This document shows positions 9,034-26,946 of a stretch of DNA of 64,000 nucleotides, one piece after another. The stretch is from Cystobacterineae bacterium (lineage in GTDB: Bacteria > Myxococcota > Myxococcia > Myxococcales > Myxococcaceae), in assembly GCA_009782175.1 (NCBI GenBank), contig WRKR01000005.1:1-64000 (forward strand). Reading direction: 5' to 3'. A program made the position numbers and the translations under genes. Positions within the stretch are counted from its first letter, which is position 1, and each line of letters opens with the position of its first letter. The notes beneath the pieces were generated by a model, which was given only the letters and a program-made list of their open reading frames with translations, did not search any database and was not told where the DNA came from.

Positions 9034-9066
9034 GCCGTTTTTACTTAGAACTGATTTGATTCTCCA

Positions 9067-9165
9067 GACCGCTTTCGTTTTGAATTGAGCTACTGCGAGC
9101 CACATTGCGTGCAGCTGAGGCAAGCTTTAGCTCGTCTCATGAAGAGCTCATGTCCAAACGGAGCG
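9067..9165. repeat. Decayed copy of the dispersed repeat
   Basis: Lies in the gap between the convergent kinase and lpxA genes. The left part CCAGACCGCTTTCGTTTTGA and the right part TCATGAAGAGCTCATGTCCA match the short copy at 16299-16376 with scattered differences. The outer flank TTTGATTCTCCAGACC is also shared with that copy, so this is a diverged relative rather than chance similarity. Confidence 0.6.
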
Positions 9166-9204
9166 TGGGGAAGAATGTTTGTGTCTGTTCAGGGTGCTTG
9201 TCTG

Positions 9205-9978: not shown

Positions 9979-10430
9979 AGAGGATCCCCTGCTTCTCTGC
10001 GCCTGAGCGTGGCCATAAACTCTGCCTCGGCGACGAGGTGGCCATCCACGGTTGCTTCTCCCTTGTGTTTCCAAACAACACCTTTTTGACGCAACACATT
10101 GACAGAAAGCAGCAACTTGTCGCCGGGGACGACAGGCTTGCGAAATTTTGCCTGATCAATGGCCATTAAATAAGAAACATTTTCCGCGGGAGAAAGTCCC
10201 GTCGTTTTATAAGCCAAAATGGCGCAGGCCTGAGCCAAAGCTTCCAGCACAAGCACGCCCGGCATGACGGGGTGGTTGGGGAAATGCCCTCCAAAAAAGG
10301 GCTCATTAAACGTTATATTTTTGAAGGCCAGCAAGTGTTTGCCTGGCTCAAACACCTCTACGCGGTCTACGAGCAAAAAAGGATAGCGGTGGGGAAGAAG
10401 TCGCTGGATTTCACAAATGTCCATGCTCAA
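9975..10430 (-). CDS. fabZ: 3-hydroxyacyl-ACP dehydratase FabZ
   Basis: 151 residues with the hot-dog fold motif [21 protein letters not shown] region (catalytic His49 and Glu63). Dehydrates 3-hydroxyacyl-ACP in fatty acid elongation and competes with LpxA and LpxD for the same substrate, which is why these genes cluster. The TTG at 10430 overlaps the lpxD stop (TTGA) and follows AAGGAA at good spacing; the ATG at 10424 is the alternative and changes only two residues. Confidence 0.96.
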
Positions 10431-11476: not shown

Positions 11477-12024
11477 TTCGCAGGAGTGGCCGGTGGGGTT
11501 GAAGGTTTGGCTGGCACAGCTGTGGCTTTATGCTTCTCGTTATAGGTGCGCACCAACTCGTTGGTATAGTCCATGCTCGCCGGAGCCCATACAAGCCCTG
11601 AATTGGTCTTCTCAAACATCATCGTCAGCCCTTCCCGCTTGGCAATGGCTTCAATAATGGGATCCATTTTTTCAAAAATCCCTCGCAGCGCCACTTGCTC
11701 CATTTGAGCCATATCCTCCTGCATTTTCTGAGCTTTTTTAAACAATGTCGAGCTCTTCTCTTGAAACTCCATGTGCTTCTGGTTGCGAGTGGCTTCGTTC
11801 ATCACGGCCATTTGCTTTTGAAAATTGTCAAATTCTTCTTTGAGTCTGTTTTCTTGTGCTGCCAACTCTCTTTTGCTCTTCTCCACTTCTTTTTCGAGTT
11901 TTTGGCGGGCTTGTTGGCCTTCGGCCACTTCTTTCAAAGCACGCTGCAAATCCACATAGCCCAGCTTGACATTTGCCCACACAGGCAAAGAAAGCATGAG
12001 GCTCAAGCATAGAAACTTCTTCAT
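11473..12024 (-). CDS. skp: OmpH/Skp family periplasmic chaperone
   Basis: 183 residues: signal peptide ([16 protein letters not shown]), then the Skp signature start [15 protein letters not shown] and a long charged coiled coil (about 40-120) that forms the tentacles of the trimer, then a return to the body domain and an Ala/Pro-rich tail. Holds unfolded outer membrane proteins in the periplasm. First gene of the lipid A cluster. In many Gram-negatives bamA precedes skp; here a small barrel gene precedes it instead. Confidence 0.9.
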
Positions 12025-12086
12025 TCACATAACTCCTTCAAGCAAAGCATTGCTCCTGCATAGGAGGCAAAGGCTTTGGGGGGGCC

Positions 12087-12680
12087 TCAAAAACGCCACC
12101 CCAGGTTAAGGCCCATTCTTATTTGAGAAGCCCGCTCCCGTGCAGGCGTTCTTCTGTCTCTCTCATCCAGCTGTAGATCCCACGCCCATGAGAACCCAAT
12201 CATCAGGTGCTCTTCTATCAGCAGGTCGATGCCAAAACTCGGAGAAATGGCAAAACGTGTCCTTCTGTCTATATCGTCATTGGACAGGCCTGCCTTAAAA
12301 CCCATGTTGAAACTCAAGGGCCATGTGTCTGTCCTGAAAGTCGGCCCCACCACAGCCATAAAGCGCTTTGTATTGAAAGCATAATTAAAATGCATCCCCA
12401 AAAGGGCCCAATCCGTAATCCAATAGGAGCCTGTGCCTCCCACATACATGGGACTTCCAGAAGTCGTCCTCTCGCCCTCCGCGTTTCTTGAGTTGATGGC
12501 AAAATTGGCACCCCACTCCGCGGAAAGGGAAAAACTGCCCATTTTTGAATAGCGATAGCCGCCATAATCCAACTCAGAGCCTTCGGGCGCGCTTGCCCTT
12601 CCCCCATATCTCTGAGCAAAACCCTCTGCTGCTCCCAGCATTCCAACCAAGGCCACAATTCCAAATATTCGTCTGTTCAT
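12087..12680 (-). CDS. Small outer membrane beta-barrel protein
   Basis: 197 residues with a signal peptide (MNRRIFGIVALVGMLGAAEG) and a body of alternating amphipathic strands (SMGSFSLSAEWGANFAI-like, YVGGTGSYWITDWALLGMHF, WPLSFNMGFKAGL, MIGFSWAWDLQL), ending in LNLGWRF with the terminal Phe typical of BAM substrates. It fits an eight-strand barrel of the OmpW/OmpX size class. No named family is recognised. It lies 62 bases before skp on the same strand. Confidence 0.7.
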   Translation of the reverse strand: MNRRIFGIVALVGMLGAAEGFAQRYGGRASAPEGSELDYGGYRYSKMGSFSLSAEWGANFAINSRNAEGERTTSGSPMYVGGTGSYWITDWALLGMHFNYAFNTKRFMAVVGPTFRTDTWPLSFNMGFKAGLSNDDIDRRTRFAISPSFGIDLLIEEHLMIGFSWAWDLQLDERDRRTPARERASQIRMGLNLGWRF

Positions 12681-12884
12681 CGTCGGCTCCCAATTTCTCT
12701 TCCCTTGACGCTCATTTCAAAAAAATATTCAAAAAACATTGAGCAGTATATCCACCCTACACGAAAATATCCAACTCCATGCCCTCATTCCTTGCTCGCT
12801 TGGCCCTCATCCTCCCCCTAAAACCCCTGTGGCGCAAGTTTTGCGTTTGACCTATAAAAATATACACTATATCATTTCCAGGTT

Positions 12885-14528
12885 TTGCTACAGTTGATAG
12901 CCACCATGCTCTTTCTTGCAGGAGCTTATCTGTCTGCTCCTGTCTTGGAGTTGGGCTCTGAGCAAAACGCGCACTTTGTCCCTCAACCCCATGCTCAACC
13001 TCATGCTCATCCCCATGCCGAGCCCCATGCTCAACCTCATGCCGAGCCCATGCCGCTTGCACCTCCTTTGAGGGCAGGCCATGTGAGGGAGGAGGCGCAT
13101 GCCTTTGGGCGCGGTATGCTCTATCGCCTGGGTTATTCCAACGCCCTGCGCAGGCAGTTGGAATATAGCTTGGGGCATTGGGAAAAAGAGGGGCAGGCGC
13201 TGGCTTTTCTTCTGCCGCCTGTTGTGGATGTGGAGGGTTTTGACGTGGCGCATGTACAGGAGCGCTATGACATTCCCTTGGAAATGCGTCCTTTGGTTGC
13301 CAGTTATATAGCGTTTTTTCAAGGGGCCGGCCGCAAGTGGTTTGTGCGGTGGTTGGGGCGCTCTACGCGCTATGTACCCCTCATGCGCCCTATTCTGGAA
13401 AAAGCACAGCTGCCCAGGGACACCGTCTATTTGGCGATGATTGAAAGTGGGTTTTCTCCGCATGCCTATTCCTGGGCCCATGCGGCTGGCCCTTGGCAAT
13501 TTATTCCTTCCACAGGGGCCTATTATGGCCTCAAGCAGGATTTTTGGGTGGATGAGCGGAGGGACCCTGTAAAGTCCACCCAGGCTGCTGCGCGCTATTT
13601 GGCAGAGCTCTATCGCAAACTCGGAAATTGGTATCTCGCCTGGGCAAGCTATAATGCAGGTGAAACCCGCGTGCGGCGCCTCATGGAGCGCCACCAGTCC
13701 ATGGACTTTTGGGAGCTTTCTGAGCTTGGCAACCTGGCCAAAGAAACCCAACACTATGTGCCCAAACTCATTGCTGCCGCACTCATTGCCAAACACCCTG
13801 AGGCCTTTGGTTTTGAGCGTGAAGAAATTGCCTATCAACCCCCCTTGGAGTTTGATGAAGTCCTCCTGGATTCAGCCACGGACTTAAACCTCATCGCCAA
13901 ACTGGTGGGCAGCTCTCTGGAAACCCTCCAGGAGTTTAACCCGGAGCTTCTGCACCTTTATACGCCACCGCCACCGCCCCAGCAGCCCTATGTCCTGCGC
14001 ATCCCCAAGGGTACAAAAGAGCCCTTCACCGAGGCTTATGCTCAACTGTCTGACCAAGAGAAACGCAATGCCAAGCCTTATGCCATACGCAAAGGGGATA
14101 CTTTGAAAAAGCTTGCCGCCCACGCCAAGCTGCACATGGACGTCCTCGCCCATTTTAACAACCTCAACCCACAGGCCACCCTCTATGTAGGCCAAGTGTT
14201 GTTCCTCCCCAATGTGGGCTTGCTCAATAACCCTCTTCAGGCTTCCGGCCCCGCACGGCTTCAGAAACGACCTGTCGTTTATCGCGTCGTCTCAGGGGAC
14301 TCGCTGTGGTCTATCTCCCGAAAGTTTGGGGTGGACCTTCAAAAACTCCAAACGTGGAACCGAAGCTTGCTGCGCAAACACAAAACACTGCAACCCGGAG
14401 CCAACCTGACGCTGTGGCCAACCTCCCCCGCCAAAACCCACAAGCCCCAGCAGGTACATTCCTCTTCCTCAGCGAAAAATTCTGCAAACCTTCAGCAGAA
14501 AAAACCCCCGATGACGAAGTCCATGTGA
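12885..14528 (+). CDS. MltD-like membrane-bound lytic transglycosylase with LysM domains
   Basis: 547 residues from the TTG at 12885; the ATG at 12906 is the other start and neither has a clear ribosome site. A hydrophobic signal segment is followed by a His/Pro/Ala-rich tandem stretch (PHAQPHAHPHAEP and so on, residues 35-57). The SLT domain (about 175-290) has catalytic Glu187 in IESGFSPHA, then AAGPWQFIPSTG and YNAGETRV. Two LysM modules follow (AIRKGDTLKKLAAHAKL and YRVVSGDSLWSISRKFG) and bind peptidoglycan. It cleaves glycan strands to anhydromuropeptides. The stop TGA falls in a remnant end of the dispersed repeat. Confidence 0.9.
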   Translation: MLQLIATMLFLAGAYLSAPVLELGSEQNAHFVPQPHAQPHAHPHAEPHAQPHAEPMPLAPPLRAGHVREEAHAFGRGMLYRLGYSNALRRQLEYSLGHWEKEGQALAFLLPPVVDVEGFDVAHVQERYDIPLEMRPLVASYIAFFQGAGRKWFVRWLGRSTRYVPLMRPILEKAQLPRDTVYLAMIESGFSPHAYSWAHAAGPWQFIPSTGAYYGLKQDFWVDERRDPVKSTQAAARYLAELYRKLGNWYLAWASYNAGETRVRRLMERHQSMDFWELSELGNLAKETQHYVPKLIAAALIAKHPEAFGFEREEIAYQPPLEFDEVLLDSATDLNLIAKLVGSSLETLQEFNPELLHLYTPPPPPQQPYVLRIPKGTKEPFTEAYAQLSDQEKRNAKPYAIRKGDTLKKLAAHAKLHMDVLAHFNNLNPQATLYVGQVLFLPNVGLLNNPLQASGPARLQKRPVVYRVVSGDSLWSISRKFGVDLQKLQTWNRSLLRKHKTLQPGANLTLWPTSPAKTHKPQQVHSSSSAKNSANLQQKKPPMTKSM

Positions 14529-14539
14529 AACCGGTCTAG
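14524..14539. repeat. Solo end of the dispersed repeat between convergent genes
   Basis: The sequence TGTGAAACCGGTCTAG matches one end of the dispersed repeat with no second end nearby. It contains the TGA of the transglycosylase (14526-14528) and, on the other strand, the TAG of the AAA+ gene (14536-14538). Confidence 0.55.
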
Positions 14540-16278
14540 CGGCTTTCTCCCAAGAGGAGGCGCAGGTTGTGGATGCGTGTGGCCAACTGGCTTCTGTCCA
14601 TGTCAGCATAGGCCTTGGGCAGCAAGCTGCGCCGGGTGCACTCTTGCACGGCGACGAGGTTTTGCAGCTCCATTTCCAAAGGGTAGGAGGGGGGAATAAA
14701 GTCCTCCAACACCCCAAGCAAGTCAGCCTTGCTGACTTTGGAGCGGCCTTGTGTTGCCGCCCCAAATTGAGCACGTACCAGCAAGGCCTCAATGTCGGCA
14801 CCGCTGAAGGTTTTGTCTGCGCAAAGCTGTGCAAAGTCCTTCACCTCTATGTCCAATTTCAGCTTCTTGCACATGGCCGCATAGAGGGCGTTTTTTTCCT
14901 CGGCCGTTTCAGGGTGGAAGAGGGCAAGGTGCTCTTCGGCGCGCCCCTGGCGCTTTAAGTCAATGGGCAACTTGTCGGGACGGCAGGTTAATAAAAACCA
15001 AATAATTTTTCCGCGGTATTGGGTGTCCCCCATAAACGAGGCCATGGAAGCAAAAACACGGCTGGAAGTCCCCGAGTCTCCCGAAGCATCCCTGTTGCCC
15101 AAAAAAGCGTCTGCTTCATCCACAACAACGGCTACGGGCCAGAGCGCTTTGAGCACCCCAAAAATACGCTCGAGGTTCCCCTCTGTTGCCCCTTGCCATT
15201 GGCTTCGGAAATTTAAAAATTTCACACAGGGAATGCCTACTTCTCCCGCAAAACACTGCACCATGTAGGTTTTGCCCGTGCCTACAGGGCCGGCCACCAA
15301 ATAGCCCATGGGCAATACCTCTGTCATCCCCTTCTTCAACGCCTTCGCTGTGCCCAAAAGCATTTCCTTCGCCGCCTCATGCCCTGCCACCGCGCTCAGG
15401 CCAAAGGGAGGCTCTACAAATTCCAAAAGGCCTTGGCACTGTGCTGCAATGGCCTCCTTCTTCGCCTCCTTTAAGGCCACCAGGGAAATTTTCTGGGAGC
15501 GGTTTTCGCTGAGGCTAAACAAACGCTCCAAATGCAAACAGGACAAACCGGAAGTCAACTTTATACAAGCATCCAGGCCCACTTCGGCCAGGGAAGTCAT
15601 TTTGCGCCCCGCCAATTTGTGCTGCAGAAAACGGCGCCGCTCCGCTTCATCAGGCAGGGACAATTCCACGGTGGTTACATAGGGGTTTTTCACCAGGCGC
15701 GCGGAAATGTCTGCCAGGCTTTCGCACACCAACACAATGGACAGATCCGCCGCCAAAAATTGCGGATCCGCCGCCCAGCGGAGCAAAGTCACCAGCAAAA
15801 AGCGGTCTTCGGAAGACAAGGAGGCTGCGTCGGAGGCGGGCACGAGGGTTTCGGCAAAGTCAATAACGAGGGCGGCGGATTTGCGCTCACCTATGCGCAG
15901 GCGCAAAAAATTTTCAAGCACCTGGAAGGCTTTGCCGGGCTCCTTGGGCAGCGCATGCGCAAACTGGGTGCCGTGTACAGCGTCATAAGCGGACATGGTT
16001 TTAGAAACATCCACCAGGGACTTTCCGTCCAGGGCGCGAATGCCTGAGGAGCGGTTATAGGAGAGGAGGTGGTCTCTCCCTGCAAACAACCCCTGGGCCA
16101 AAAATGTGCTTAAGGGGCCATAGCTGTGTTGGGCATTGGCTCCCTCTGCCTTAACCCCGAGGGGGTGCAAGTCCTTCACCGCCCCGTGCAACACAAAAGT
16201 GCATACGGTTCTGCTGAAATAGGCGTGGGCCAGTTTTTGGGCCCATGCGGGCAAGCCTTCCAATGACTTTTTCAACAT
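14536..16278 (-). CDS. Two-module AAA+ ATPase, first module degenerate
   Basis: 580 residues. The C-terminal module has Walker A GPVGTGKT (330-337), Walker B VAVVVDEADAF (382-392), a sensor 1-like WFLLTCRP and a small helical domain after about 460. The N-terminal half also looks AAA-like (VIDFAE at 138-143 as a Walker B-like strand, VLVCESLADISARL as sensor 1, then a lid region) but lacks a Walker A, so it should not hydrolyse ATP. The layout resembles type II AAA proteins with one dead ring. Substrate unknown; no protease or partner gene is fused. Its stop TAG lies in the remnant repeat end GGTCTAG. A short repeat copy lies upstream. Confidence 0.8.
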   Translation of the reverse strand: MLKKSLEGLPAWAQKLAHAYFSRTVCTFVLHGAVKDLHPLGVKAEGANAQHSYGPLSTFLAQGLFAGRDHLLSYNRSSGIRALDGKSLVDVSKTMSAYDAVHGTQFAHALPKEPGKAFQVLENFLRLRIGERKSAALVIDFAETLVPASDAASLSSEDRFLLVTLLRWAADPQFLAADLSIVLVCESLADISARLVKNPYVTTVELSLPDEAERRRFLQHKLAGRKMTSLAEVGLDACIKLTSGLSCLHLERLFSLSENRSQKISLVALKEAKKEAIAAQCQGLLEFVEPPFGLSAVAGHEAAKEMLLGTAKALKKGMTEVLPMGYLVAGPVGTGKTYMVQCFAGEVGIPCVKFLNFRSQWQGATEGNLERIFGVLKALWPVAVVVDEADAFLGNRDASGDSGTSSRVFASMASFMGDTQYRGKIIWFLLTCRPDKLPIDLKRQGRAEEHLALFHPETAEEKNALYAAMCKKLKLDIEVKDFAQLCADKTFSGADIEALLVRAQFGAATQGRSKVSKADLLGVLEDFIPPSYPLEMELQNLVAVQECTRRSLLPKAYADMDRSQLATRIHNLRLLLGESR

Positions 16279-16298
16279 CCAACTCCCTCCTCAAACCA

Positions 16299-16376
16299 GA
16301 CCGCTTTCACTTTGACATGAGCTCTTCGTGAGACTTGCTTCGCCCACCTCGACCTCATGCCCAATTGAAACCGGTC
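16299..16376 (-). repeat. Short, reversed copy of the dispersed repeat
   Basis: 78 bp from GACCGCTTTCACTTTGACAT to AATTGAAACCGGTC. Reading the minus strand gives the same ends as the full copies, in the same order, but the core is about 45 bp shorter and lacks the TGCACTTAAGTGCA palindrome. The flank CAGACC/GATTCTCC on its left (minus strand) is shared with other copies. It sits between the AAA+ start and the kinase stop. Confidence 0.75.
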
Positions 16377-16414
16377 TGGAGAATCAAATGAGCTCAAGGT
16401 GAACAGGCCCTACC

Positions 16415-18403
16415 CTAGGGTTGCTGCAATTTCTGCAGCGTCTGCTGAAGCCGTACATAGCCCTCTTCACCTTTGGGTATAAACACCTCTACAACGAGAG
16501 GCTCATAACCTTCGGCGGACATGGAAAGACGCAACTCACCCGCAGGTACAGGAAGAAGGCGTGGCCAGCTTTGAAAGGGGCCCCCGTCTTTGTCCAACAC
16601 CTCCTTGTCGTTAATAAACAAGCGCACCTTGCCCCCGGATAACTCTTCAGGCATTTCCACCAAAATATTGCCCATGGGTGCTGGCCATGCCCATAGGAGC
16701 AGCAGCAACCCTGAAGCCAAGCAGAGGGAAGCCACCCCCGCCCAGAGGTATTTTTTTAACGCATATTTCTTCAACAGGGAGAGGCTTTGCTTCAGTGCCA
16801 CCGCCAAAGCCCCAGGGGGGGTGTTGGTATGTGCCTTCACCCTGGCAACAGGCATGGGGGAAACAGGCATGGGGTTTAGCAGGGGAAGTGCCTGTGGAGG
16901 AAGTGCCTGTGGAAGCGCTTCCACGGGCCTAGGTGCCCCGGGGAAAGGTGCTGCCGGAGCAGGCGCCACCTGGTTCCCTTCACGCAGCGTCTCCTCCAAC
17001 ACCGGTGTCAACAGCGGTGTTGGAGGAGGCACAAGCTCAGCCACGGCAGGCGTCAACGGGAACGCGGGCCTTTCATCCGTCTCCTCGGGCGTCTCCAACA
17101 ACTCTGTCAAGTGGGGGTTTGTTGCTATTTTTTCGCCTGTGTTTGCGCCTATATGGGCATCTGTGTTTTCGCCTGTGTTTGCGCCGATGTTGGCATCTGT
17201 GTTTGTGCCTGTGTTTTCACCGGTATTTTCACCTGTGTTTTCACCGGTATTTTCGCCTGTATTTTCGCCTGTATTTTCGCCCATGTTGGGGTCTGTAAGG
17301 CTGACGAGGATGGTGGAGTCGGCGGGAGGTTCCAGTTGGGCACGTTGTGCTTCCAGCTCTGCCAGCCTCTGTTCAGCCAGTTTGCCGTTGGAGCCTGTCC
17401 ATGCGGGCATAGGCAGGGCCAAACATTCCTGGAGGTGTTTTTGCTCATCCGCATAAAGCTGGGCAAAGGAGGACTTCATATATTCGGCAAGGTTTTGTTT
17501 GCGGAATGTGCCCTCCAGGCCATAGAGGAAGTGCATTAACTCATCCCCTATTTCACTGGCATATTGGTATCGGTCTTCTACGTTTCTTGCCAGCGCCTTC
17601 AAGACAATTTTTTCCAATGTTGAAGGAATTTCCCCGTTAAGCGTTGTGGGCAATGTCACTTCGGCTTTGCGGACTTTCTCCAGCACTGAAAAATCGGTCT
17701 TCCCTGAAAACAAGCGCTTTCCCGTCAGCAACTCATAGAGGCAAATGCCAATTCCAAAAATATCCGAGCGCCTGTCTACGTTTTGTCCGAGAATTTGCTC
17801 AGGGCTCATATAGGAAAATTTTCCCTTGAGTGTGCCTGCTGCTGTTTCCGTTCTCCTGTTCACCGCTTTGGCAATGCCAAAGTCAATGAGTTTCACATCC
17901 CCATCAAAACTCACCAGTATGTTCTGCAAGGAGACGTCGCGGTGGACAATGCCCATTTCATTGCCTTGCGCGTCCATGCGGCGGTGTGCATAGTCCAAAC
18001 CCGCGCAGCAGCAGGCCATAACATAGCAGGCAAAAGGAATGGGAGGGGGCGTCTCGCGCTGCGCGCACCAGTCAAACAGGGCGCGTAAATCTCTCCCATG
18101 CACATATTCCATGGCAATATAATAGGAGTTGGCATCCGCATCCTGCCCAAGCTCATAAATTTTACAAATATTGGGGTTGCTGAGTTGGACTGTAATTTTG
18201 GCCTCGTCAATAAACATGGAAATGAAGTCCGTGTCTTCGGCGACATGCGGCAAAATGCGCTTGATGGCCACCAAACGCTCAACACCACCTAAAAGCGTCT
18301 TCCCCAGCCATACGGCGGCCATGCCCCCACTCTTAATGTGGTTGAGAAGAACGTATTTCTGCCCAAAAGGAATGGGCTTTATGTTGTTGTATGAACTTGT
18401 CAC
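16415..18403 (-). CDS. Ser/Thr protein kinase with Asn-Thr-Gly repeats and PEGA-like tail
   Basis: About 662 residues from the GTG at 18403, chosen because AGG lies six bases before it; an in-frame TTG at 18445 is possible. Kinase domain with KSGGMAAVWLGK, AIKRI, HRDVSLQN (His-Arg-Asp about 154-156), DFG (173-175) and a complete activation loop. A low-complexity linker of repeated ENTG/ANTG units (17125-17290) and Pro-rich sequence precede one membrane segment (WAGVASLCLASGLLLLLWAW), then a short PEGA-like extracytoplasmic domain (VEMPEELSGGKVRLFINDKE). Same architecture as the kinase at 7252-9033. Targets unknown. Confidence 0.92.
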   Translation of the reverse strand: MTSSYNNIKPIPFGQKYVLLNHIKSGGMAAVWLGKTLLGGVERLVAIKRILPHVAEDTDFISMFIDEAKITVQLSNPNICKIYELGQDADANSYYIAMEYVHGRDLRALFDWCAQRETPPPIPFACYVMACCCAGLDYAHRRMDAQGNEMGIVHRDVSLQNILVSFDGDVKLIDFGIAKAVNRRTETAAGTLKGKFSYMSPEQILGQNVDRRSDIFGIGICLYELLTGKRLFSGKTDFSVLEKVRKAEVTLPTTLNGEIPSTLEKIVLKALARNVEDRYQYASEIGDELMHFLYGLEGTFRKQNLAEYMKSSFAQLYADEQKHLQECLALPMPAWTGSNGKLAEQRLAELEAQRAQLEPPADSTILVSLTDPNMGENTGENTGENTGENTGENTGENTGTNTDANIGANTGENTDAHIGANTGEKIATNPHLTELLETPEETDERPAFPLTPAVAELVPPPTPLLTPVLEETLREGNQVAPAPAAPFPGAPRPVEALPQALPPQALPLLNPMPVSPMPVARVKAHTNTPPGALAVALKQSLSLLKKYALKKYLWAGVASLCLASGLLLLLWAWPAPMGNILVEMPEELSGGKVRLFINDKEVLDKDGGPFQSWPRLLPVPAGELRLSMSAEGYEPLVVEVFIPKGEEGYVRLQQTLQKLQQP
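17125..17290 (-). repeat. In-frame 12-bp tandem repeat in kinase linker
   Basis: Runs of GAAAATACAGGC-type 12-bp units (minus strand) encoding ENTG, with variants ANTG, TNTD, AHIG. Purely coding and in frame, so gain or loss of units changes only linker length. Confidence 0.8.
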
Positions 18404-18504
18404 AAATAACCTGGAGAGCCAGAAACATACTCTGCTCTGCCCCAAAACAACAATGCTTTAAAATACCCGCTTCCTCACCCTTGGGTTGAGGGCCTGCCCC
18501 TCCC

Positions 18505-19794
18505 CTAGCGACCTGCCAAAACCTCTGCCGGAGACATTTTCTGAAGACGCCTGCTGGGCCCCCAAACACCCAGCAAAGCAGCCAACATGGCCCCCAGAAG
18601 TGCCCCTATACACCCCAGGACAGGAAGCATAAAAAGGTTTTTGGGCAACAGTGGAATGTCCCCAAGCACTTGAAACAAAAAAACATTCAACAAATGCCCG
18701 CCACCTAAGGCTGCAGCAATGCCCAGGCCTCCGCCCACCAAAGCCAAAATAAGGGCTTGGACCATCACTGTCCATGCCAATTGTGCAGGTGTAGCTCCCA
18801 CTGCACGAAAAATAGCAAATTCCGTTTCGCGCATGCGCAGAGAGTGGGACATGCCCTGCGCAATGTTCAGCGTCGCCAAAACACCAATGAGGATGGACAG
18901 CAAAGACAAGGCCCCTGTTGTGGCCCATATGGCAAGGCCCAGCTGCCTGGCCCTCTGGCGCTCTCCCTCATCCACTTTAAAGCCCATGTGCTCTAACTCT
19001 TGGATCAGCTTTGGCACATGGGCGCTGTCTGTCACCTCAACCACCACCGAGGAATAATGCTCCGCGTCCTTCCCCAGGGCACGGTTAATGCGTTTGGCGG
19101 ACTCCAACGGAATGGAAATGCCTGCCAAAAAAGCCCTCGGTGAGAAACCGGCTATAAAAAATTCCTGGGCCAGTGCTTCTCCCGCGTTGCCCGCAAAAAA
19201 ACTCTGGTTGAAAACAACATCAAAACCAAAACCCTTTAACATGTCCTCGTTGCTCAGCAAAGGCAGCCCATTTTTGGGGGCAAAATGTTGGTTATAAACC
19301 TCTATTAAATAGGAGCTGAGCACCACCGGCACGCCCTCTTTTTCCTCAAAAAATATGTCCTCATCAACAAATAACGCTGTTGAAACTTCTGGCGCAAACA
19401 ATGCTGGCTCTATGCCTACCGCCATTATTTCCAGGCCCATGTGGATGCGCATGCCCAAAAGCGTGTCATTGATGCGCGTCGTCCCCGGTGCACGTACCTC
19501 CATTTTTCTATACAGGGTATGCACATGCTCCAAAGCCTGAAATGCTTCACAGGCCGCCTCATCCAACTTTTTGTATTCCTTTTCACCCAATGTCCATTGG
19601 GGCGCTTTCACCTCAAAACGCTTGGCATCCACAGGAAACAAATGCTGGATGAAGTGGGTCAGCCCCATGCCCACCCCCAGGAAAAACAACAGGGAGCCCA
19701 CCGCCAAAGCCATGCCAAAAACCGAGGACAATGCCAAAGAGAAGTCCCTCTTCAGCGACAAGCGCAACAATTTTTGCAAAGCCCAAAGCCTCAT
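18505..19794 (-). CDS. ABC transporter permease, MacB/LolC type
   Basis: 429 residues with the MacB/FtsX plan: one membrane segment near residues 18-45 (VFGMALAVGSLLFFLGVGMG), a large extracytoplasmic domain of about 230 residues, and three membrane segments in the last 150 residues (LAIWATTGALSLLSILIGVL, VMVQALILALVGGGLGIAAA, VLGCIGALLGAMLAALLGVW). A coupling motif MSPAEVLAGR closes the protein. Such permeases act by mechanotransmission rather than by passing substrate through the membrane. The ATG overlaps the stop of the ATPase gene (ATGA). Last gene of the pspA-led operon. Confidence 0.85.
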   Translation of the reverse strand: MRLWALQKLLRLSLKRDFSLALSSVFGMALAVGSLLFFLGVGMGLTHFIQHLFPVDAKRFEVKAPQWTLGEKEYKKLDEAACEAFQALEHVHTLYRKMEVRAPGTTRINDTLLGMRIHMGLEIMAVGIEPALFAPEVSTALFVDEDIFFEEKEGVPVVLSSYLIEVYNQHFAPKNGLPLLSNEDMLKGFGFDVVFNQSFFAGNAGEALAQEFFIAGFSPRAFLAGISIPLESAKRINRALGKDAEHYSSVVVEVTDSAHVPKLIQELEHMGFKVDEGERQRARQLGLAIWATTGALSLLSILIGVLATLNIAQGMSHSLRMRETEFAIFRAVGATPAQLAWTVMVQALILALVGGGLGIAAALGGGHLLNVFLFQVLGDIPLLPKNLFMLPVLGCIGALLGAMLAALLGVWGPSRRLQKMSPAEVLAGR

Positions 19795-20453
19795 TGCAAA
19801 CGCCCTTGCTCCAAGTTGAGGTGGCGCTGGGCTGCTTTCAACAACAAAGGCTCATGCGTCGCCACCACCAGCGTCAGCCCTTCTGCATTCAGCCGCACAA
19901 GCAAGTCCACAATGCTTTGCGTGGTTTGTGCATCCAAGTTGCCTGTGGGCTCGTCGCACAGCATCAGGCGCGCACCCGCAAACAAGGCGCGCGCAATGGC
20001 CATGCGTTGCCTTTCGCCTCCTGAAAGCTGTGCAGGCGTGGACTTGGCCTTGTCGCCTAAGCCTACGGCTTGGAGCATTTGCAAAGCCCTGGGTATTATG
20101 TCTGGAGGGGGGGCTTTGGAAAACAATGCCGGCAAGGCAACGTTTTCTAATGCGGACCAGCCCTGAATGAGGTGGAAACTTTGGAATACGCTGGCCACTG
20201 TTGTGGCCCTATAGTGGGCCAGCTCCCTGGAAGAAAGCTTGGACAACACCTCCTCGCCTATGCGTACTTCTCCTTCATAACACAAATCCAAAGCCCCCAA
20301 AATGTTGAGCAGCGTCGTCTTCCCACTGCCGGATTTGCCGCTGAGCGCAACAAACTCCCCCGAAGCAACCTCTAAGCTGGGAATGGAAAGCGCATGCACC
20401 GCATGGGCATGCGCCTTCTCAAACACTTTGCTTAAGTTGCGGACTTCAATCAC
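19791..20453 (-). CDS. ABC transporter ATP-binding protein, LolD/MacB type
   Basis: 220 residues from the GTG at 20453, which overlaps the TGA of the upstream lipoprotein gene (GTGA); the longer open frame lies inside that gene. Walker A GKSGSGKTTL, Q-loop in VFQSFHLIQGWSALENV, signature LSGGERQRMAIARAL, Walker B LMLCDEPTGNLD and switch His in VATHE are all intact. Family members extract lipoproteins (LolD), export peptides (MacB) or regulate cell wall hydrolases (FtsE). The operon context (PspA, lipoprotein, periplasmic binding protein) points to an envelope function. Confidence 0.9.
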   Translation of the reverse strand: MIEVRNLSKVFEKAHAHAVHALSIPSLEVASGEFVALSGKSGSGKTTLLNILGALDLCYEGEVRIGEEVLSKLSSRELAHYRATTVASVFQSFHLIQGWSALENVALPALFSKAPPPDIIPRALQMLQAVGLGDKAKSTPAQLSGGERQRMAIARALFAGARLMLCDEPTGNLDAQTTQSIVDLLVRLNAEGLTLVVATHEPLLLKAAQRHLNLEQGRLQ

Positions 20454-22030
20454 CGAGGGGCACTCTCGGTGATATGCTCCACAACCCACTGGGCATATTC
20501 TGCGTTGGCCTCCATGCCCACCAATATATATTCTGTTTGCTTCATCTCTTCTCCAAACAGCAACTCCCTGAACTCCCTATCCTGCGCAAAGGCATTGAGG
20601 TGGATGGCCATCGCCACAGGAAAACGCTGCATTTTTTGGAGCATCATCTTTTCCATGGCGCTGGGCACCTCGCCCTCATACACTTGCATGTCTTTTGCAA
20701 TGCGCACTTTGTTTGGCCCCACAGCCTGAAACTGAAAGTTTTCCCTCCTCAGCTGCGCTTGCCACACCGGTGCAGCAGAAGAGGCTTTGTTGGCTTCAAC
20801 TTTGTCTGCTGCAACTTTGTCTGTTTTAACTTTGTCTGCTTCAACTTTTTCTGCAGAAAGCAGCGAAGCCAACAGGCTCACCGCGTTTTCCGCACCTTCT
20901 GTGAGCAAAAAGTCCACGCTCCAGAGCACGTTCAGCTTAGCGTCTTCCTCATTTATTGGTTTTTTAAAGTCCTCGTCTCCCTCATCCATTGTTTTTTTAA
21001 AGTCCTCCTTGGCCTCTCCCTCATCCGTTGTTGTTTTGAGCCAGGCTCTCCCGAGGAAGGGGGACTCCAGGTCTCCTTTCATGGTTTCAACCTCCTCATT
21101 TCCTGTGAGTTGCAACCCGAATACGGAGGCGAAGGGGTTGAGCAGCTGAGTATACCAATCCCATCTCACGGAAGACCAAAAGCTCACTGTCGCCCCGCCC
21201 AGTCCTTGAGTCCATTGTTTCTCTACAAAGGGCAGCATCTGCATCGCCGGTATAACAGCTTCCTGGCCCTGACGAGAGAGGACATTCCCCACCATCTTCG
21301 CGCTGGGCTGCAGAGTAAGGCCGGCCCCTATCCATTCCACCGGGCTCGTCTCGTCTTGAATGTGGAACCACGTAGACACAACGCGTCCCGCGGGAAACCT
21401 GGAGGCCATTTTCAGCAAAACCTCTGTGTGCTTGGCCCAGCTTTTGTCTGCGGGCAGCTGAGTCCTCTTTTGCAAGGCCTCCAGCTCATCCCCTATCCAA
21501 AACAGCGCATAGCCCGGCTTTTGCTCCAAAACAACAAAAGTGCCGGCGTGGTGCCAGCCATATAAGCCTGCAGGCATATTGGGCTGTACCTCCCACTTGT
21601 CTTCGCCTATAAAATTTTTCTCAATGGCAGCCAACAGCGCATCCGGCTTCAACACCGGCAAAGCCAGCAATGCAACAAAGTCCTCCTTCTGGCCACTGAA
21701 ACTCAGCGGGGCTTGTACATTTATCCCCATCTCCTGCCATGTTGCCAGGGAGAACCAATCCAAACCTGTGTGCTCCTTGCCCTCTTCCTGAAACCCCTCC
21801 AGGCCCTTTTTAAAGCGCTCCATAAAGGAGAGCTGCTTCACCTTTTCCAGGGAAGCTTTGAGCTCTTCCATAGAAGAAGCCACCATAAACCATTCTGCTT
21901 CTTCAGGTGTCCACGAGGCCAAAGTCTCCACGCTTTTTTCAGAAACGGAATGAGAGGGACACCGCTTTGCACAGCCCATGCTGAGTGCCAGTGTCAACAT
22001 TCCTATGGCATATGCCATTGTTTTATTCAT
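20450..22030 (-). CDS. Large lipoprotein of unknown function, ABC/PspA operon
   Basis: 526 residues from the ATG at 22030, which overlaps the upstream stop (ATGA). Signal peptide with lipobox LSMGC. The body has no family I recognise: an alpha/beta domain (about 30-330) is followed by acidic repeats (EDFKKTMDEGDEDFKKP) and a DKVxA tandem stretch, then a C-terminal domain of about 110 residues. Position between the membrane coiled-coil protein and the ABC ATPase, with four-base overlaps on both sides, says it belongs to the transporter machinery. Confidence 0.75.
   Translation of the reverse strand: MNKTMAYAIGMLTLALSMGCAKRCPSHSVSEKSVETLASWTPEEAEWFMVASSMEELKASLEKVKQLSFMERFKKGLEGFQEEGKEHTGLDWFSLATWQEMGINVQAPLSFSGQKEDFVALLALPVLKPDALLAAIEKNFIGEDKWEVQPNMPAGLYGWHHAGTFVVLEQKPGYALFWIGDELEALQKRTQLPADKSWAKHTEVLLKMASRFPAGRVVSTWFHIQDETSPVEWIGAGLTLQPSAKMVGNVLSRQGQEAVIPAMQMLPFVEKQWTQGLGGATVSFWSSVRWDWYTQLLNPFASVFGLQLTGNEEVETMKGDLESPFLGRAWLKTTTDEGEAKEDFKKTMDEGDEDFKKPINEEDAKLNVLWSVDFLLTEGAENAVSLLASLLSAEKVEADKVKTDKVAADKVEANKASSAAPVWQAQLRRENFQFQAVGPNKVRIAKDMQVYEGEVPSAMEKMMLQKMQRFPVAMAIHLNAFAQDREFRELLFGEEMKQTEYILVGMEANAEYAQWVVEHITESAPR
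20795..20854 (-). repeat. In-frame 15-bp tandem repeat in lipoprotein gene
   Basis: Four 15-bp units of the form TTCAACTTTGTCTGC (plus strand), encoding the charged five-residue unit D-K-V-x-A. Confidence 0.8.
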
Positions 22031-22824
22031 CGTCTTATACCTGCCTTTTGGGTGTTCCAATGCGTAAGCTCCTCTGAAAATTCCATAAACTGTTCCATTT
22101 CCCTAACGGTTTCTTCTGTGGCCACCGTTTGCTGCGTCAAAAGCTCCAGCTGGCGGTTGACGGACTCAGGGTCCCTTATGCTGACGGCTTGCTCGTTGGT
22201 GAGGCGAAGCAAGTCTTCAATGCTGGCCAGTTGGTGGCTCATCCACTCGCGGCTTTCTTCCGCATATAAAAAGCGGGAAAGCCGCTTCTCTAAAATTTCA
22301 GCCCTCCGTTTTTTAATGTCTGCCAAACGAGAGCCTCCTTCTGTTGAAATGTCCTTTGACACTTCCTTCAACTCTTCTTCAATGCTTTTTTTCTCTTCAG
22401 GCCTAAAACAATGCCGGTATAAGTTGAGGCCCACCACCAGGCGCAAAAAAGCCATCAGCAAAGCACTCAAATGCCTCGCGGAGCTCAGCTGCAGTTGTTT
22501 GCCCCCAGGCAAACGGGCATAACTCTCAAGCGTCTTGTCTTTTAAAACACGCAAGCACTCATAATGGCGGCGCTGAGAAACCGAAAGCTCCGCCAACAAA
22601 CGCGCCTCTTCGCGAGCCAAAGGCGTAGCCTGTGGAGCATGGTGCGCGCGCGCCCACAAAGCCCCGAGGCTGATGCAAAGGGCGCTGCCGGCCATGGCGC
22701 CAAGGCCTGAAGCCAGAGGAATGGCCCATGCTCCCACAGGCAGGCCTGTCCACAGGACGGAGAGGCCCGAAAAAACCCCTGCTACCGGAATGGATAGCCA
22801 TGAAAAGGTAGAAAACTTATTCAC
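22027..22824 (-). CDS. Membrane protein with long coiled coil, ABC/PspA operon
   Basis: 265 residues. Two adjacent hydrophobic segments at the N-terminus (about 8-32 and 34-55: SIPVAGVFSGLSVLWTGL and AIPLASGLGAMAGSALCI), then about 200 residues of charged helix with heptad character (KKSIEEELKEVSKDIS, LELLTQQTVATEETVREME). Probably a membrane-anchored cytoplasmic coiled coil. No family recognised. It starts 30 bases after the binding-protein gene and overlaps the lipoprotein gene (ATGA). A PspA-interacting role would fit, but is inference. Confidence 0.75.
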   Translation of the reverse strand: MNKFSTFSWLSIPVAGVFSGLSVLWTGLPVGAWAIPLASGLGAMAGSALCISLGALWARAHHAPQATPLAREEARLLAELSVSQRRHYECLRVLKDKTLESYARLPGGKQLQLSSARHLSALLMAFLRLVVGLNLYRHCFRPEEKKSIEEELKEVSKDISTEGGSRLADIKKRRAEILEKRLSRFLYAEESREWMSHQLASIEDLLRLTNEQAVSIRDPESVNRQLELLTQQTVATEETVREMEQFMEFSEELTHWNTQKAGIRR

Positions 22825-22854
22825 ATTGTCTCACATAGGCAAGGGGGGCATAAC

Positions 22855-23994
22855 TCACTGTAGCTTAGCTAGCCGTTTTAAAGGTGTTAATTCAAGACTT
22901 TCTTCTGTGCGGGGTGCCGGTGGCCGCTCATAAAGCTTGGTGGCCAGGGCCATGGTGCTTTGGTAAAGCTCCGCATAGCCCACGGCTGCGTGTCCTTGCA
23001 GTCCAAAAAAAGCGAGGTTTTCCTGCAGGGAGGCCAAGGGCTCTTCTTGCAACAATTGTTCAGGCTTAAGCAGCTCAGGGTATTTTTTCTTCAAGCCCGC
23101 CAGCATGGGTTTGCCATAGCGGCCCATGTTCTGCTCCATTTCAAAAACCCCACGGAGCACACGCAAAGCCACCTCAGGGTACCTGGCGGCAAAGGCTCCC
23201 CTGGCTACCAAGAGGGAGGCCACCAAATGGGGGACTTCCGCTGTAGAGTCCAAAAATTCTCCTTTGTTTTGAAGGGCCCAGGGAAGCAACTCCCCATATA
23301 AACCCACGGCCGCATCGGCTGTGCCCTTGTCCAAAAAAAGGGCCGCCTCCAATGCGGAGTCCAAAGGAAGCAGGGTTACCTCATTGAGGCTGAGCCCCGC
23401 GCGCGAAAGTGTCCACAGCAACAAGTGGTGGCCAGGGCCCCACATTTCCACGGCAATGCGTTTGTTTCGCAGTTGCGCAGGGTGGTGCAAGCCTTGTGTG
23501 CCTACCAATAAGTCCTGCCCCCGGCTCCAGCCCATAAGCATGAGTACGCGTGGGGCTGCAGCCTTCAAACGGGGGGCTGTCAGCACCAAAGTCGGCATGC
23601 TGAGCACGGCCATGTCTATGCCACCCTGCTCCCCCCCCTGGGCCAAGGCTTGGCTCAACTCCGTGCTGTTGGAAAAAACGCGAATGCGGACTTCCACGCC
23701 GAAAGACTGACTCCACAGCCCTTCTTCTTCTGCTGCCCACAACAAAGGCCCTGCAAAACCGCGCAGGGTTGTGCCTATATAGGTGGGGCGCAAAATGAAA
23801 ACAGCCCTCTCATGTGCAGGAGCAGCAACGCCTGCCGGAAAGTCCGCGGCATAGAGAACGGGCCCTTGCGGCTGCGCGCGCTTGTGTAGCCCTAAAGAGG
23901 AGAGCAAGGCCAGGCTGAGGGCCAATACAAATAAAAAAGCCAAGGCAAGCCAATGCCCCCTGCTCAGCTTTTTGGGAGAAGCTTTGGCATTCAA
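22855..23994 (-). CDS. NMT1/THI5-like periplasmic substrate-binding protein, membrane-anchored
   Basis: 379 residues. An N-terminal signal anchor (WLALAFLFVLALSLALLSSLGL) has no lipobox, so the protein is probably tethered. The body fits the NMT1/TauA class: a strand-helix start, DMAVLSMPTLVL, VGTQGLHHPAQLRNKRIAVE, HHLLLWTLSRAGLSLNEVTLLPL, GTADAAVGLYGELLPWALQ. Usual relatives bind sulfonates, nitrate or thiamine precursors and pair with an importer permease of the BPD class. Here the operon has a MacB-like permease instead, so the usual import role is doubtful. The start overlaps the pspA stop (ATGA). Confidence 0.78.
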   Translation of the reverse strand: MNAKASPKKLSRGHWLALAFLFVLALSLALLSSLGLHKRAQPQGPVLYAADFPAGVAAPAHERAVFILRPTYIGTTLRGFAGPLLWAAEEEGLWSQSFGVEVRIRVFSNSTELSQALAQGGEQGGIDMAVLSMPTLVLTAPRLKAAAPRVLMLMGWSRGQDLLVGTQGLHHPAQLRNKRIAVEMWGPGHHLLLWTLSRAGLSLNEVTLLPLDSALEAALFLDKGTADAAVGLYGELLPWALQNKGEFLDSTAEVPHLVASLLVARGAFAARYPEVALRVLRGVFEMEQNMGRYGKPMLAGLKKKYPELLKPEQLLQEEPLASLQENLAFFGLQGHAAVGYAELYQSTMALATKLYERPPAPRTEESLELTPLKRLAKLQ

Positions 23995-24728
23995 CTTTTC
24001 AAGTTAACCTTTTTGCCAAGGGTTTTTTCAGGTGCCGGTGAAACCTCCTCTGGAGGGGAAGCCTCCATTAGCCCCATTTCCAATTTCATTTGTTTGACCA
24101 AGTCCATGGCCTGCATTTTTTCAACCTCTTCTTCAAGGTTGACGGAAGGGGTGTCGATGGATTCCAAAGCCATGGCCATGCGCGCTTCATTTAAGGCCGC
24201 CTGCTCATTAACCTTGCGCACCATTTCGTCATGGGTCGCATCCACGCCTGTCACTTTGAAGGATTCCAGGGCATCTGCCACTTTCGCCTGCCACTGCGCG
24301 CGTTGCGCATCCCTTATGGCGGACATGGCTTCCTGCGTTTTGCGCTCTTTTTCGCGCATAAACGCCTTTTTCACCGTCAGGGCCTTCTCATAGGCCTCTG
24401 TGGCCAACACCAGCTGGGCTTCCACTTGGGCCAGGGCCGCTTTCTCCGTTTGCAGCCGCTGCGCATATTGGGCGGCCACCTCATCCTTGCCCAGCTGAAT
24501 GGCTGCTTTTATTTTGGCCGTCAACTCGCGGATTTGGGCCGCGTGCTTGTCCCTCTCTTTCTGCAACAGGGACATGTTGGCGCGTACCATGGCCACTTGC
24601 TCATTCATCCTCGGCACCTGGTCGTTTAAGTCCCTGATGTTCTGCTCTAAAATAAGCTCCGGGTTTTCTATGTTGCTGACAGCAGCACCCAAAAAACTGC
24701 GCACCGCTCTGACAAGTCGCTTCCACAT
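23991..24728 (-). CDS. pspA: PspA/IM30 family membrane-remodelling protein
   Basis: 245 residues from the ATG at 24728, six bases after TGGAG; an ATG six bases upstream is the alternative. Nearly all helix, starting with MWKRLVRAVRSFLGAAV, an amphipathic membrane-binding helix, then NPELILEQNIRDLNDQVP, the PspA family hallmark, and the hairpin and distal helices. The C-terminal tail (about 30 residues, PPEEVSPAPEKTLGK) is extra and disordered. PspA/IM30 proteins are ESCRT-III relatives that coat and repair the inner membrane. First gene of the six-gene ABC operon. Confidence 0.9.
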   Translation of the reverse strand: MWKRLVRAVRSFLGAAVSNIENPELILEQNIRDLNDQVPRMNEQVAMVRANMSLLQKERDKHAAQIRELTAKIKAAIQLGKDEVAAQYAQRLQTEKAALAQVEAQLVLATEAYEKALTVKKAFMREKERKTQEAMSAIRDAQRAQWQAKVADALESFKVTGVDATHDEMVRKVNEQAALNEARMAMALESIDTPSVNLEEEVEKMQAMDLVKQMKLEMGLMEASPPEEVSPAPEKTLGKKVNLKS

Positions 24729-24994: not shown

Positions 24995-26197
24995 CTATGC
25001 TTTGGGGGGGGCACCAAATACGTTTCGCTCATCCAAAAAAATACGGGTGGAGGTTTTTTGAAATACCACGGCCAACAGCACCGTAACAGCCAAAGTCAGG
25101 GCTGCGGGCCCATATTCCACGTTTCCAAAAACACAGGCTTTGGCCAAGAGGGCCAAGTTGACGAGAGGCATCCACGCCAAAGGCCAGGAAAGCTCCATGC
25201 CGGGAAAAACCACCACCAGGCTGGCCATGAGGGAGGCCAAAGCGGCCAGGGAGGTGGTGGTTTGGCTGGCTTTGAGTGTGCGCGCCACGCTTGCCAGGGC
25301 AATGCAAATGCTGCTGGCCAAAAAAGCGGCCGGCACAAAGCACACACACAAAAAGGCCAGCTGCCCCCATTGGAAATGTAGATGTTGTAGCTCCAGGCCC
25401 CACTCTTTTTCTGGCAACACCCAGGTGGCAACCAGGAAAAGCCCTATAAAAACAGCCAGGTTTAAAAAGGCTGAAAACAAGGCCGAGGCGCTGATAATGG
25501 CTTGCTTGGCGCGCAGCACTTGCTTGGGCTTGAGCGGTGCGGAGAGCAAAGTTTCGAGTGTCCCGCGCTCTTTTTCTCCTGTCACCAAATCCGTCGCCAA
25601 GTTGGCGGAGCTCATAAAGAGTGTGTTGACAATGCAAAAACCTATAAGCACCGCCAACATTTCCAGCCAGGGGCTTTGCTGGGTTACATCCACCTCTTCT
25701 ATTACCATGGGTTTGGCAAAGGCCTTGGAGAGCTCCATCTTCTCAAAGCGTTTTTCCAGGCGCTCCTGGTTTAAGGCTTCCAGGGCTTTATGCAAGCGCT
25801 CTTTCACCTCTTTGGAGCGCTCTTGTTGTCTGGAATAATACAGGCGCAACTTCACAGAGTGTTGCATGTCGCTCTCTTCAAAATGCCCTTCGGCTTCGAC
25901 GAAGGCCCAGAGCTTTTTCTGGGTTATGTGCTCCAGCGCCTCTTCGCGCGCCTTCACCTCCAGAGGCGTATGCTGAAGCTGCCCTTGGAGCACATCCACC
26001 ATGGAGCGGTTTGCAACGCTGGCCGGCAACACCTCATGGGCCAGGCTCTGCTTGGCCCACCACGTGCCATAGAGGATGCCACCAAAGGCCAGCGGCATGG
26101 CCAACACCGGCATCACCAAGGTGAAAAAAACAGCTCGCTTGTCGCGCAAAAACTCACGCAACTCTTTTTTAAACAGCACCCACGTCGCGCCTCTCAT
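24995..26197 (-). CDS. ABC-2 type transporter permease (NatB-like)
   Basis: 400 residues. One membrane segment near the N-terminus (AVFFTLVMPVLAMPLAFGGIL), a soluble domain of about 150 residues, then five hydrophobic segments (WLEMLAVLIGFCIVNTLF, ALFSAFLNLAVFIGLFLVAT, LAFLCVCFVPAAFLASSI, LAALASLMASLVVVFPG, ALTLAVTVLLAVVFQ), with the cytoplasmic EKERGTLETLLSAPL motif typical of the NatB/YhgE-like ABC-2 class. Exports Na+ or small toxic compounds in known members; substrate here unknown. Overlaps the ATPase gene by four bases. Confidence 0.88.
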   Translation of the reverse strand: MRGATWVLFKKELREFLRDKRAVFFTLVMPVLAMPLAFGGILYGTWWAKQSLAHEVLPASVANRSMVDVLQGQLQHTPLEVKAREEALEHITQKKLWAFVEAEGHFEESDMQHSVKLRLYYSRQQERSKEVKERLHKALEALNQERLEKRFEKMELSKAFAKPMVIEEVDVTQQSPWLEMLAVLIGFCIVNTLFMSSANLATDLVTGEKERGTLETLLSAPLKPKQVLRAKQAIISASALFSAFLNLAVFIGLFLVATWVLPEKEWGLELQHLHFQWGQLAFLCVCFVPAAFLASSICIALASVARTLKASQTTTSLAALASLMASLVVVFPGMELSWPLAWMPLVNLALLAKACVFGNVEYGPAALTLAVTVLLAVVFQKTSTRIFLDERNVFGAPPKA

Positions 26198-26946
26198 AAC
26201 TCCCCTTGGGCAAAATGCAGAAAAAGGTCGATCAGCCGAAGTTTGCCGCTTTGCTGTTTTAACGCTTCCAGGGTGCCCTGGGTCGCCATGCGGCCCTTGC
26301 GAAGGAATAAAACCCTGTCACACAAATATTCTATCTCTTCCATGCGGTGTGTGGAAAACACCACGGCCCTCCCGCGGGCTTTGGCTTTTTGCACCAGTTG
26401 GACAATGTCATGGGAGGCCATCGGATCCAAAGTGGCCGTGGGCTCATCCAAAACATAGAGGCTGGGGTCGGCAACCAGCGCGCGTGCGACGGAGACGCGC
26501 TGGCGCATGCCTGAAGAGAGTTGGCCGCAGCGCTTGTCCAAAAAAGCATGCAAATGCATTTCCTCAGCCAGGCTGTTAATGCGGTTGGAGAGGGCAAGGC
26601 CACTGAGGCCATAAAGCTCTCCAAAAATGTGCAAAATGTCTCTGGGGCTCAGCTTCTCATAGAGGCGTGTATTGCCCGTTAAAAACCCCACCTGACGGCG
26701 CGCCTTCAGCGAAGGCTCCAACACGTCCATGCCCTCTATAAGGGTTTGCCCGGCCGTTGGCCGCATCAGCCCGGAAAGCATACGCAACAAGGTTGTTTTG
26801 CCGGAGCCGTTGGCCCCCAATATGCCCAATACCTCACCCGCATATAAGCGGAAGCTGACGCCCTCCACGGCCACTTCTGCACCAAAATGCTTTGTCAGCC
26901 CCACAGCTTCCACAACAGCATGCTGGGGGTCGGCCGTTTTATTCAA
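26194..26946 (-). CDS. ABC transporter ATP-binding protein (NatA/CcmA type)
   Basis: 250 residues with Walker A GANGSGKTTL, Q-loop at FLTGNTRLYEKLSPRD, signature LSSGMRQRVSVARAL, Walker B LYVLDEPTATLD and switch His in FSTHRMEE. Partner of the permease that follows, coupled by an ATGA overlap. Separated from the NHL gene by about 420 bases in divergent orientation. Confidence 0.92.
   Translation of the reverse strand: MNKTADPQHAVVEAVGLTKHFGAEVAVEGVSFRLYAGEVLGILGANGSGKTTLLRMLSGLMRPTAGQTLIEGMDVLEPSLKARRQVGFLTGNTRLYEKLSPRDILHIFGELYGLSGLALSNRINSLAEEMHLHAFLDKRCGQLSSGMRQRVSVARALVADPSLYVLDEPTATLDPMASHDIVQLVQKAKARGRAVVFSTHRMEEIEYLCDRVLFLRKGRMATQGTLEALKQQSGKLRLIDLFLHFAQGEL

Follow-up and report, generated by a model that had tools for sequence, protein, structure and literature searches.

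A PspA-led gene cluster of Myxococcaceae combined with a type VII ABC transporter cassette found across Myxococcota

We analysed 64,000 nucleotides of a Cystobacterineae bacterium (Myxococcaceae; assembly GCA_009782175.1, contig WRKR01000005.1, positions 1 to 64,000; hereafter the window), in which a run of eight genes on the reverse strand starts with pspA. The cluster joins a described kind of PspA operon to a phylum-wide, uncharacterised cassette of a type VII ATP-binding cassette (ABC) transporter, and it is conserved across Myxococcaceae, Myxococcus xanthus included. The initial annotation, made from the sequence, had proposed a PspA-led envelope operon with a MacB/LolC-like transporter. 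This core of the proposal stands, as a conserved cluster with a type VII (MacB/LolC/FtsX-like) ABC transporter: the gene order recurs in relatives, and the genes first left without assignment match no characterised transporter system. With a probability of about 0.45, we read the locus as two modules that lie together in a composite cluster for envelope maintenance, one (module A) serving repair through PspA, a membrane-anchored coiled-coil protein and an AAA+ ATPase, and the other (module B) being a type VII ABC machine for lipids or lipoproteins.

Gene order and its conservation

We searched loci from relatives with profiles of all eight proteins. The order pspA, NMT1-like gene (nmt), coiled-coil gene (coil), lipoprotein gene (lipo), ABC ATPase gene (lolD) and permease gene (perm) was found in 22 loci read gene by gene (the window, L032-L048, L051, L056, L057 and L061), where a Ser/Thr kinase gene and then an AAA+ ATPase gene follow if the contig extends far enough; in L051 the coil segments are duplicated. 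The full order is also present in 38 of 57 loci from named genomes, M. xanthus included, and the remaining ones are mostly truncated by contig ends or are variants with differences in NMT1/coil or in the cassette. Such conservation exceeds chance by far and supplies the recurrence in other Myxococcota that was initially proposed as a check. Since the kinase and the AAA+ ATPase keep the same positions in relatives, the six-gene boundary first drawn at 18505-24728 is too narrow.

The source genome (2.7 Mb, 99.95% complete) belongs to the same GTDB genus as the metagenome-assembled genomes (MAGs) WQYA01 ('Cystobacterineae bacterium') and WQTM01, which, by their isolate names, presumably originate from termite gut. 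In the rest of the family (Archangium, Myxococcus, Corallococcus, Hyalangium) genomes are mostly 4-14 Mb. The genome of the window lineage is much reduced, and all eight genes are kept.

The six genes initially reported lie where they had been placed, all on the reverse strand (Table 1). Four of their five joints overlap, as was claimed, each by four bases, with a codon set that differs from the ATGA/GTGA given at first: coil/lipoprotein and ATPase/permease share ATGA, lipoprotein/ATPase shares GTGA, and pspA/NMT1 shares TTGA owing to the TTG start. The last pair likewise overlaps by 4 bases in two same-genus relatives. The sole non-overlapping joint, NMT1/coil, is a 30-base gap. Among the six proteins, Pfam support above cut-off was obtained for PspA, NMT1, ABC_tran and FtsX, while the coiled-coil protein and the lipoprotein of the window matched no Pfam family themselves.

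Table 1. Genes of the cluster in the window and in M. xanthus AM003 (locus L092)
Gene product	Window	Strand	Support or remark	M. xanthus AM003
PspA (PspA/IM30 family), 245 aa	23991..24728	-	PF04012 62.3 bits, cut-off 33.9	7972-8703
NMT1/SsuA-like binding protein, N-terminal hydrophobic anchor, 379 aa, TTG start	22855..23994	-	PF09084, SsuA_fam	8720-9904
Membrane-anchored coiled-coil protein, 265 aa (hydrophobic N-terminal segment, then helical domain)	22027..22824	-	all-helical model	9926-10723
Lipoprotein, 526 aa, divergent DUF3352-type family member	20450..22030	-	lipobox MGC; orthologous position in relatives	10847-12493
LolD/YbbA/MacB-type ABC ATPase	19791..20453	-	best NCBIfam match LolD	12502-13161
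FtsX/MacB-type (type VII) permease, single gene	18505..19794	-	PF02687 53.4 bits, cut-off 25.5	13197-14477
Ser/Thr protein kinase, next gene after the permease	16415..18445	-	PF00069 126 bits; outside the initial six-gene span	15357-17399
AAA+ ATPase, after the kinase	14536..16278	-	PF00004 70.8 bits at 327-451	17955-19685

Directly upstream of pspA and on the same strand, positions 24995-26946 of the window encode an ABC-2 permease (ABC_perm_CPBP-like) and its ATPase. L037, L038 and L039 have this pair upstream of pspA as well, so it may be a more loosely attached part of the cluster.

Separable modules and a paralogous importer-type locus

The trio of lipoprotein, LolD-like ATPase and permease is phylum-wide, single-copy, and usually found without PspA. 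The permease profile gave exactly one strong match (E ≤ 1e-50) in 164 of 195 Myxococcota genomes; the permease was found in more genomes of the phylum than this PspA, the NMT1-like protein or the coil. In other families lipo and lolD directly precede the permease in nearly all loci read there (L141-L149, L152, L157 and L158). The trio has been lost as a unit in three genomes (G008, G022 and G028), where searches found neither lipoprotein nor permease and the other genes are kept. At their loci (L049 and L060) pspA-nmt-coil is followed by an enoyl-CoA-hydratase-like reading frame (identified by eye) and then by the kinase, the cassette being missing. Family f7 (L153-L156) has pspA, lipo, lolD, perm, kinase and AAA in this order, lacks an NMT1-like gene and shows no more than a short match to the coil; L154 has a weak kinase match, placed after AAA. 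The phylum-wide trio, its loss as a unit and the f7 variants together show lipo-lolD-perm behaving as one unit and pspA-nmt-coil, with or without kinase and AAA, as another. We also observed a lineage of small genomes (L053, L055, L150 and L151; about 3 Mb, one of them a sheep-colon MAG) with a duplicated coil and the permease on a different contig.

A second, paralogous locus is present in many Myxococcota. It runs in the order PspA, NMT1-like protein of 550-760 aa with an OmpA domain at its end, TauC-type permease, TauB-type ATPase, transmembrane (TM) coiled coil and AAA. For L126 and L132 the OmpA fusion, the TauC/SaoP-type permease (PF00528), the TauB-type ATPase and the coil homologue were shown by Pfam/NCBIfam or by profile, and in L132 the coil and AAA genes share a four-base overlap. 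An AAA+ gene adjoins the locus in L129, L131 and L132, in whose genomes the present PspA cluster was not found; a distant PspA adjoins it in L129 and L132. A long NMT1-like protein together with an ABC ATPase and a TM coiled coil was seen in L126, L127, L129, L131, L132 and L133.

Operons of this composition have been described. In the part of Ravi et al. (2024; PMC11237479) available to us, they consist of PspA, a TM-bearing Snf7-like protein, an AAA+ protein, an ABC ATPase, a permease and a PBPB-OmpA protein, as at the paralogous locus in L132 and L126, with OGG56892.1 and the deltaproteobacterial AKJ06548.1 among the examples. Common to those operons and the cluster studied here is the presence together of PspA, a membrane-anchored coiled coil, an AAA+ protein and a periplasmic binding protein (PMC11237479, same part). 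They differ in that a LolD/FtsX-type transporter with a DUF3352-type lipoprotein takes the place of the TauB/TauC-type importer in our cluster, where, moreover, the binding protein carries no OmpA domain and a kinase is inserted. Within that part of the paper we found no mention of the DUF3352-type lipoprotein, the LolD/FtsX swap or the kinase. The initial suggestion of a system not yet described thus fails for operons uniting PspA, a TM coiled coil, AAA+, ABC and binding proteins and, as far as the available part of the publication goes, holds for the lipoprotein, the transporter swap and the kinase.

The NMT1-like protein of the window passes the PF09084 cut-off (22.2 against 20.5 bits), matches SsuA_fam at 1.8e-18, and by profile resembles PDB entries of binding proteins for taurine, sulfonate and nitrate. 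Pfam detected no OmpA domain in this protein (P0002) and no BPD_transp_1 permease or TauB-type ATPase among the proteins of the cluster. No TauC-type partner for it is apparent, since BPD_transp_1 importer permeases occur in the genome only as a single pair, on contig C4. Of the accessions named above, AKJ06548.1, judging by its prefix, may be this very cluster in an Archangium genome.

Membership in the NMT1/SsuA family, and the pairing of a homologue with TauB/TauC-type parts at the paralogous locus, could be taken to mean that the protein delivers a ligand to the ABC transporter for import, as Ravi et al. suggested for related operons. We consider a solute importer very unlikely, because the permease is of the FtsX/MacB type, no BPD_transp_1 gene is present in the locus, the cassette is not accompanied by the binding protein over most of the phylum, and L049 and L060 have the binding protein without the permease. 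Its position beside an FtsX-type permease is most readily accounted for by a switch of transporter partner and not by an importer that uses a MacB-type permease, since the trio is found by itself over most of the phylum and the binding-protein homologue sits with a real TauB/TauC-type importer. For the same reasons the initial picture of an importer-style binding protein serving a MacB-type permease within one six-part system is not supported. The importer-type locus is spread over more classes of the phylum, so that, most simply, the Myxococcales cluster would derive from the importer type through replacement of the importer by the lipoprotein-LolD-FtsX trio, a direction that we infer from this distribution and not from a rooted tree.

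Component proteins and proposed function

Each Myxococcaceae genome in which PspA of this type was found has a single copy of it; identity is about 62-73% across the order, and in the source genome pspA is the sole such gene found. The PspA profile matches Vipp1/PspA structures over residues 2-200. PspA is what the cluster shares with the classical Psp system (PspF-PspA-PspBC), from which it differs in that PspC was not found in the genome and no conserved sigma-54 site precedes pspA. The best candidate sigma-54 sites upstream of pspA score low and are not conserved in position across relatives, and a sigma-54/PspF-type promoter was therefore rejected. In most of L040-L048, L056, L057 and L061 a TGTAAGGT-like element, possibly a -10 element, is located about 30-50 bases before the pspA start.

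The coiled-coil protein, whose model has a mean predicted local distance difference test score (pLDDT) of 73, is homologous to the coil of the paralogous locus. Its best matches among solved folds reached E 0.3 (Foldseek) and E 0.13 (PDB profile), no member of the family has a Snf7 or PspA match in Pfam, and a profile-profile comparison with PspA (hhalign) gave nothing; these comparisons thus gave no sign of a relation to PspA or ESCRT-III. Similar coiled-coil proteins are called Snf7 homologues in the available part of Ravi et al. (PMC11237479). PspA, a TM coil and an AAA+ protein are all present in our cluster, the Snf7/ESCRT-III relation of the coil being undetected by Pfam, Foldseek and hhalign. 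The AAA+ ATPase has a C-terminal CDC48/FtsH-like domain with intact motifs (CDC48 E 1e-35). Its N-terminal half aligns weakly (E 0.08) and in register with the C-terminal half over the Walker B, sensor 1 and sensor 2 regions and is plausibly a degenerate AAA domain, in agreement with the published description.

The window lipoprotein (P0004) does not match PF11832 (DUF3352), whereas its orthologues in L148 (40.3) and L045 (33.2) exceed the Pfam cut-off of 26.8. The database entry of PF11832 records no function, and among the papers available to us a search found none on DUF3352 or M. xanthus PspA. The best fold match of the lipoprotein model (pLDDT 75) is TP0453 (E 2e-5), an outer-membrane-associated lipoprotein of Treponema for which a lipid role has reportedly been proposed. 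Across the phylum the lipoprotein family mostly keeps the lipobox; the proteins of L053 and L055 have an N-terminal hydrophobic anchor instead. Most loci conserve a second cysteine (CxxC), three residues past the one that is lipidated (e.g. L035:10300-11883, L141:5440-7254, L152:7200-8819); it is absent in L149 and is spaced as CxxxC in the window protein. A same-genus relative carries the lipoprotein gene in tandem duplicate (L033:3193-6267).

The FtsX-domain permease and the LolD/MacB-class ATPase together place the transporter among type VII ABC systems. The ATPase scores 205 bits with the NCBIfam model for LolD (cut-off 307.75), 189 with FtsE and 177 with YbbA, below every equivalog cut-off. 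The permease matches structures of YtrF, LolF, MacB, LolE/LolC and YbbP (PDB profile), chiefly over its C-terminal half, and scores 32 bits against the LolCE equivalog cut-off of 362.45. It was rejected as the genome's LolCE, a better LolCE match being present on contig C3; a search of the genome contigs with P0006 gave no match, the sequence being too divergent. Compared with LolCDE-LolA and LolF, the ATPase family is the closest and the permease belongs to the same superfamily, but the equivalog cut-offs are missed, there is a single permease gene, and no LolA is found in the operon. MacAB-TolC is alike in the type VII permease fold (MacB_PCD weak, E 0.04); here, ATPase and permease are separate genes, and the operon contains no MacA adaptor or TolC. 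YbbAP-TesA, to judge from the part of its description available to us (PMC12646458), is alike in that a LolD/YbbA-type ATPase, an FtsX-type permease and a dedicated periplasmic partner are encoded together, and YbbP is among the PDB matches of the window permease. Yet the latter has 429 aa against about 800 aa in YbbP, and its partner is a DUF3352-type lipoprotein, not a thioesterase.

With the ATPase closest to LolD, the permease profile matching LolF, LolE and LolC, and a lipoprotein gene immediately preceding that of the ATPase throughout the phylum, the cassette might be a second Lol-like sorter. The LolD-permease pair would then free a subset of lipoproteins from the inner membrane, with the operon's lipoprotein either accepting them or being itself a substrate, and with PspA co-expressed to keep damage to the membrane low. 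This appears unlikely in view of the scores (LolD 205 against 308 and LolCE 32 against 362 bits), the better LolCE match elsewhere in the genome, the size of the lipoprotein (about 500-600 aa, unlike LolA/LolB) and the absence of its lipobox, with a hydrophobic anchor at the start, in L053 and L055.

The kinase may belong with the transporter cassette, because in two loci without PspA (L148, 11216-13243, and L157, 10961-11932, oriented) the permease is followed by a kinase of this type. One could envisage a type VII signalling device, by BceAB-like sensing or FtsEX-like activation of a periplasmic partner, which would relay envelope state to or from the kinase and PspA with nothing being moved. 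Conservation of the kinase directly after the permease, also where PspA is lacking, and FtsX-type mechanics are in line with such a device; but the kinase stays with module A where module B is lost (L049, L060), and no histidine kinase or other BceAB partner was seen, so we regard it as improbable.

In the composite reading that we prefer, PspA, the membrane-anchored coil and the AAA+ ATPase would remodel or seal the inner membrane on its cytoplasmic face, as PspA with AAA+ has been taken to do in the published, related operons. The anchored NMT1-like protein, which derives from the binding protein of an importer, would sense a ligand on the periplasmic face. In module B, the LolD-like ATPase and the FtsX-type permease, probably a homodimer, would pass ATP-driven movement across the inner membrane to their own DUF3352-type lipoprotein, which would most likely accept or present lipid or lipoprotein drawn out of the membrane. 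The Ser/Thr kinase would probably tune one or both modules, which may be in direct contact. Extraction or presentation of this kind is the most likely job of module B, because a dedicated lipoprotein accompanies it phylum-wide and the operon encodes no adaptor or outer-membrane channel. Type VII systems are known to pass movement on to a periplasmic partner (FtsEX acts on EnvC, LolCDE on LolA, MacAB on TolC). YbbAP drives TesA in a type VII ABC lipid hydrolase complex (PMC12646458, available part). That systems with a periplasmic partner such as LolCDE and YbbAP-TesA handle lipids or lipoproteins supports, by analogy, this reading of module B.

The constant order, the overlapping genes and the retention through genome reduction suggest that the two modules are coupled, and the natural losses indicate that coupling would not be obligatory. 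Each module does occur without the other, as would be expected of two housekeeping envelope modules that are loosely co-located with no functional coupling; against this, which we hold to be highly improbable, speak the stop/start overlaps, an order constant across a family of large genomes and retained in a reduced one, and the preservation of the same order by varied part sets (without NMT1, or with a duplicated coil).

Several points weigh against the composite reading. Because the modules can be separated, they may lie together for joint regulation without forming a single machine. Some related families lack NMT1 and coil or have divergent versions of them, and the coil shows no detectable relation to PspA, Snf7 or a solved fold, so that the ESCRT-like part draws on PspA and the published reading. 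The TP0453 fold match is partial (template modelling score 0.25 by query and 0.48 by target, root-mean-square deviation 6.4), and the putative link to lipids derives from this match and from analogy.

A bolder version, which seems to us rather doubtful, would make the trio a new kind of type VII machine, near-universal in Myxococcota and defined by its dedicated DUF3352-type lipoprotein, that moves an inner-membrane lipid or lipoprotein and that in Myxococcales has displaced the importer of a membrane-remodelling operon with PspA and AAA+, thereby coupling repair and lipid export both physically and genetically.

Significance for PspA and type VII transporters

A related PspA cluster has already been published (PMC11237479), and the version with the importer replaced by a lipoprotein-LolD/FtsX machine was, in the part of that work available to us, found undescribed. 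How PspA acts in bacteria without its partners PspF, PspB and PspC is an open question, for which the cluster is a testable case. Many type VII ABC transporters are without known cargo, and the trio found here is single-copy and phylum-wide. The paralogous locus and the natural losses provide a ready comparison for establishing which parts depend on each other, and M. xanthus, a tractable organism, carries all eight genes.

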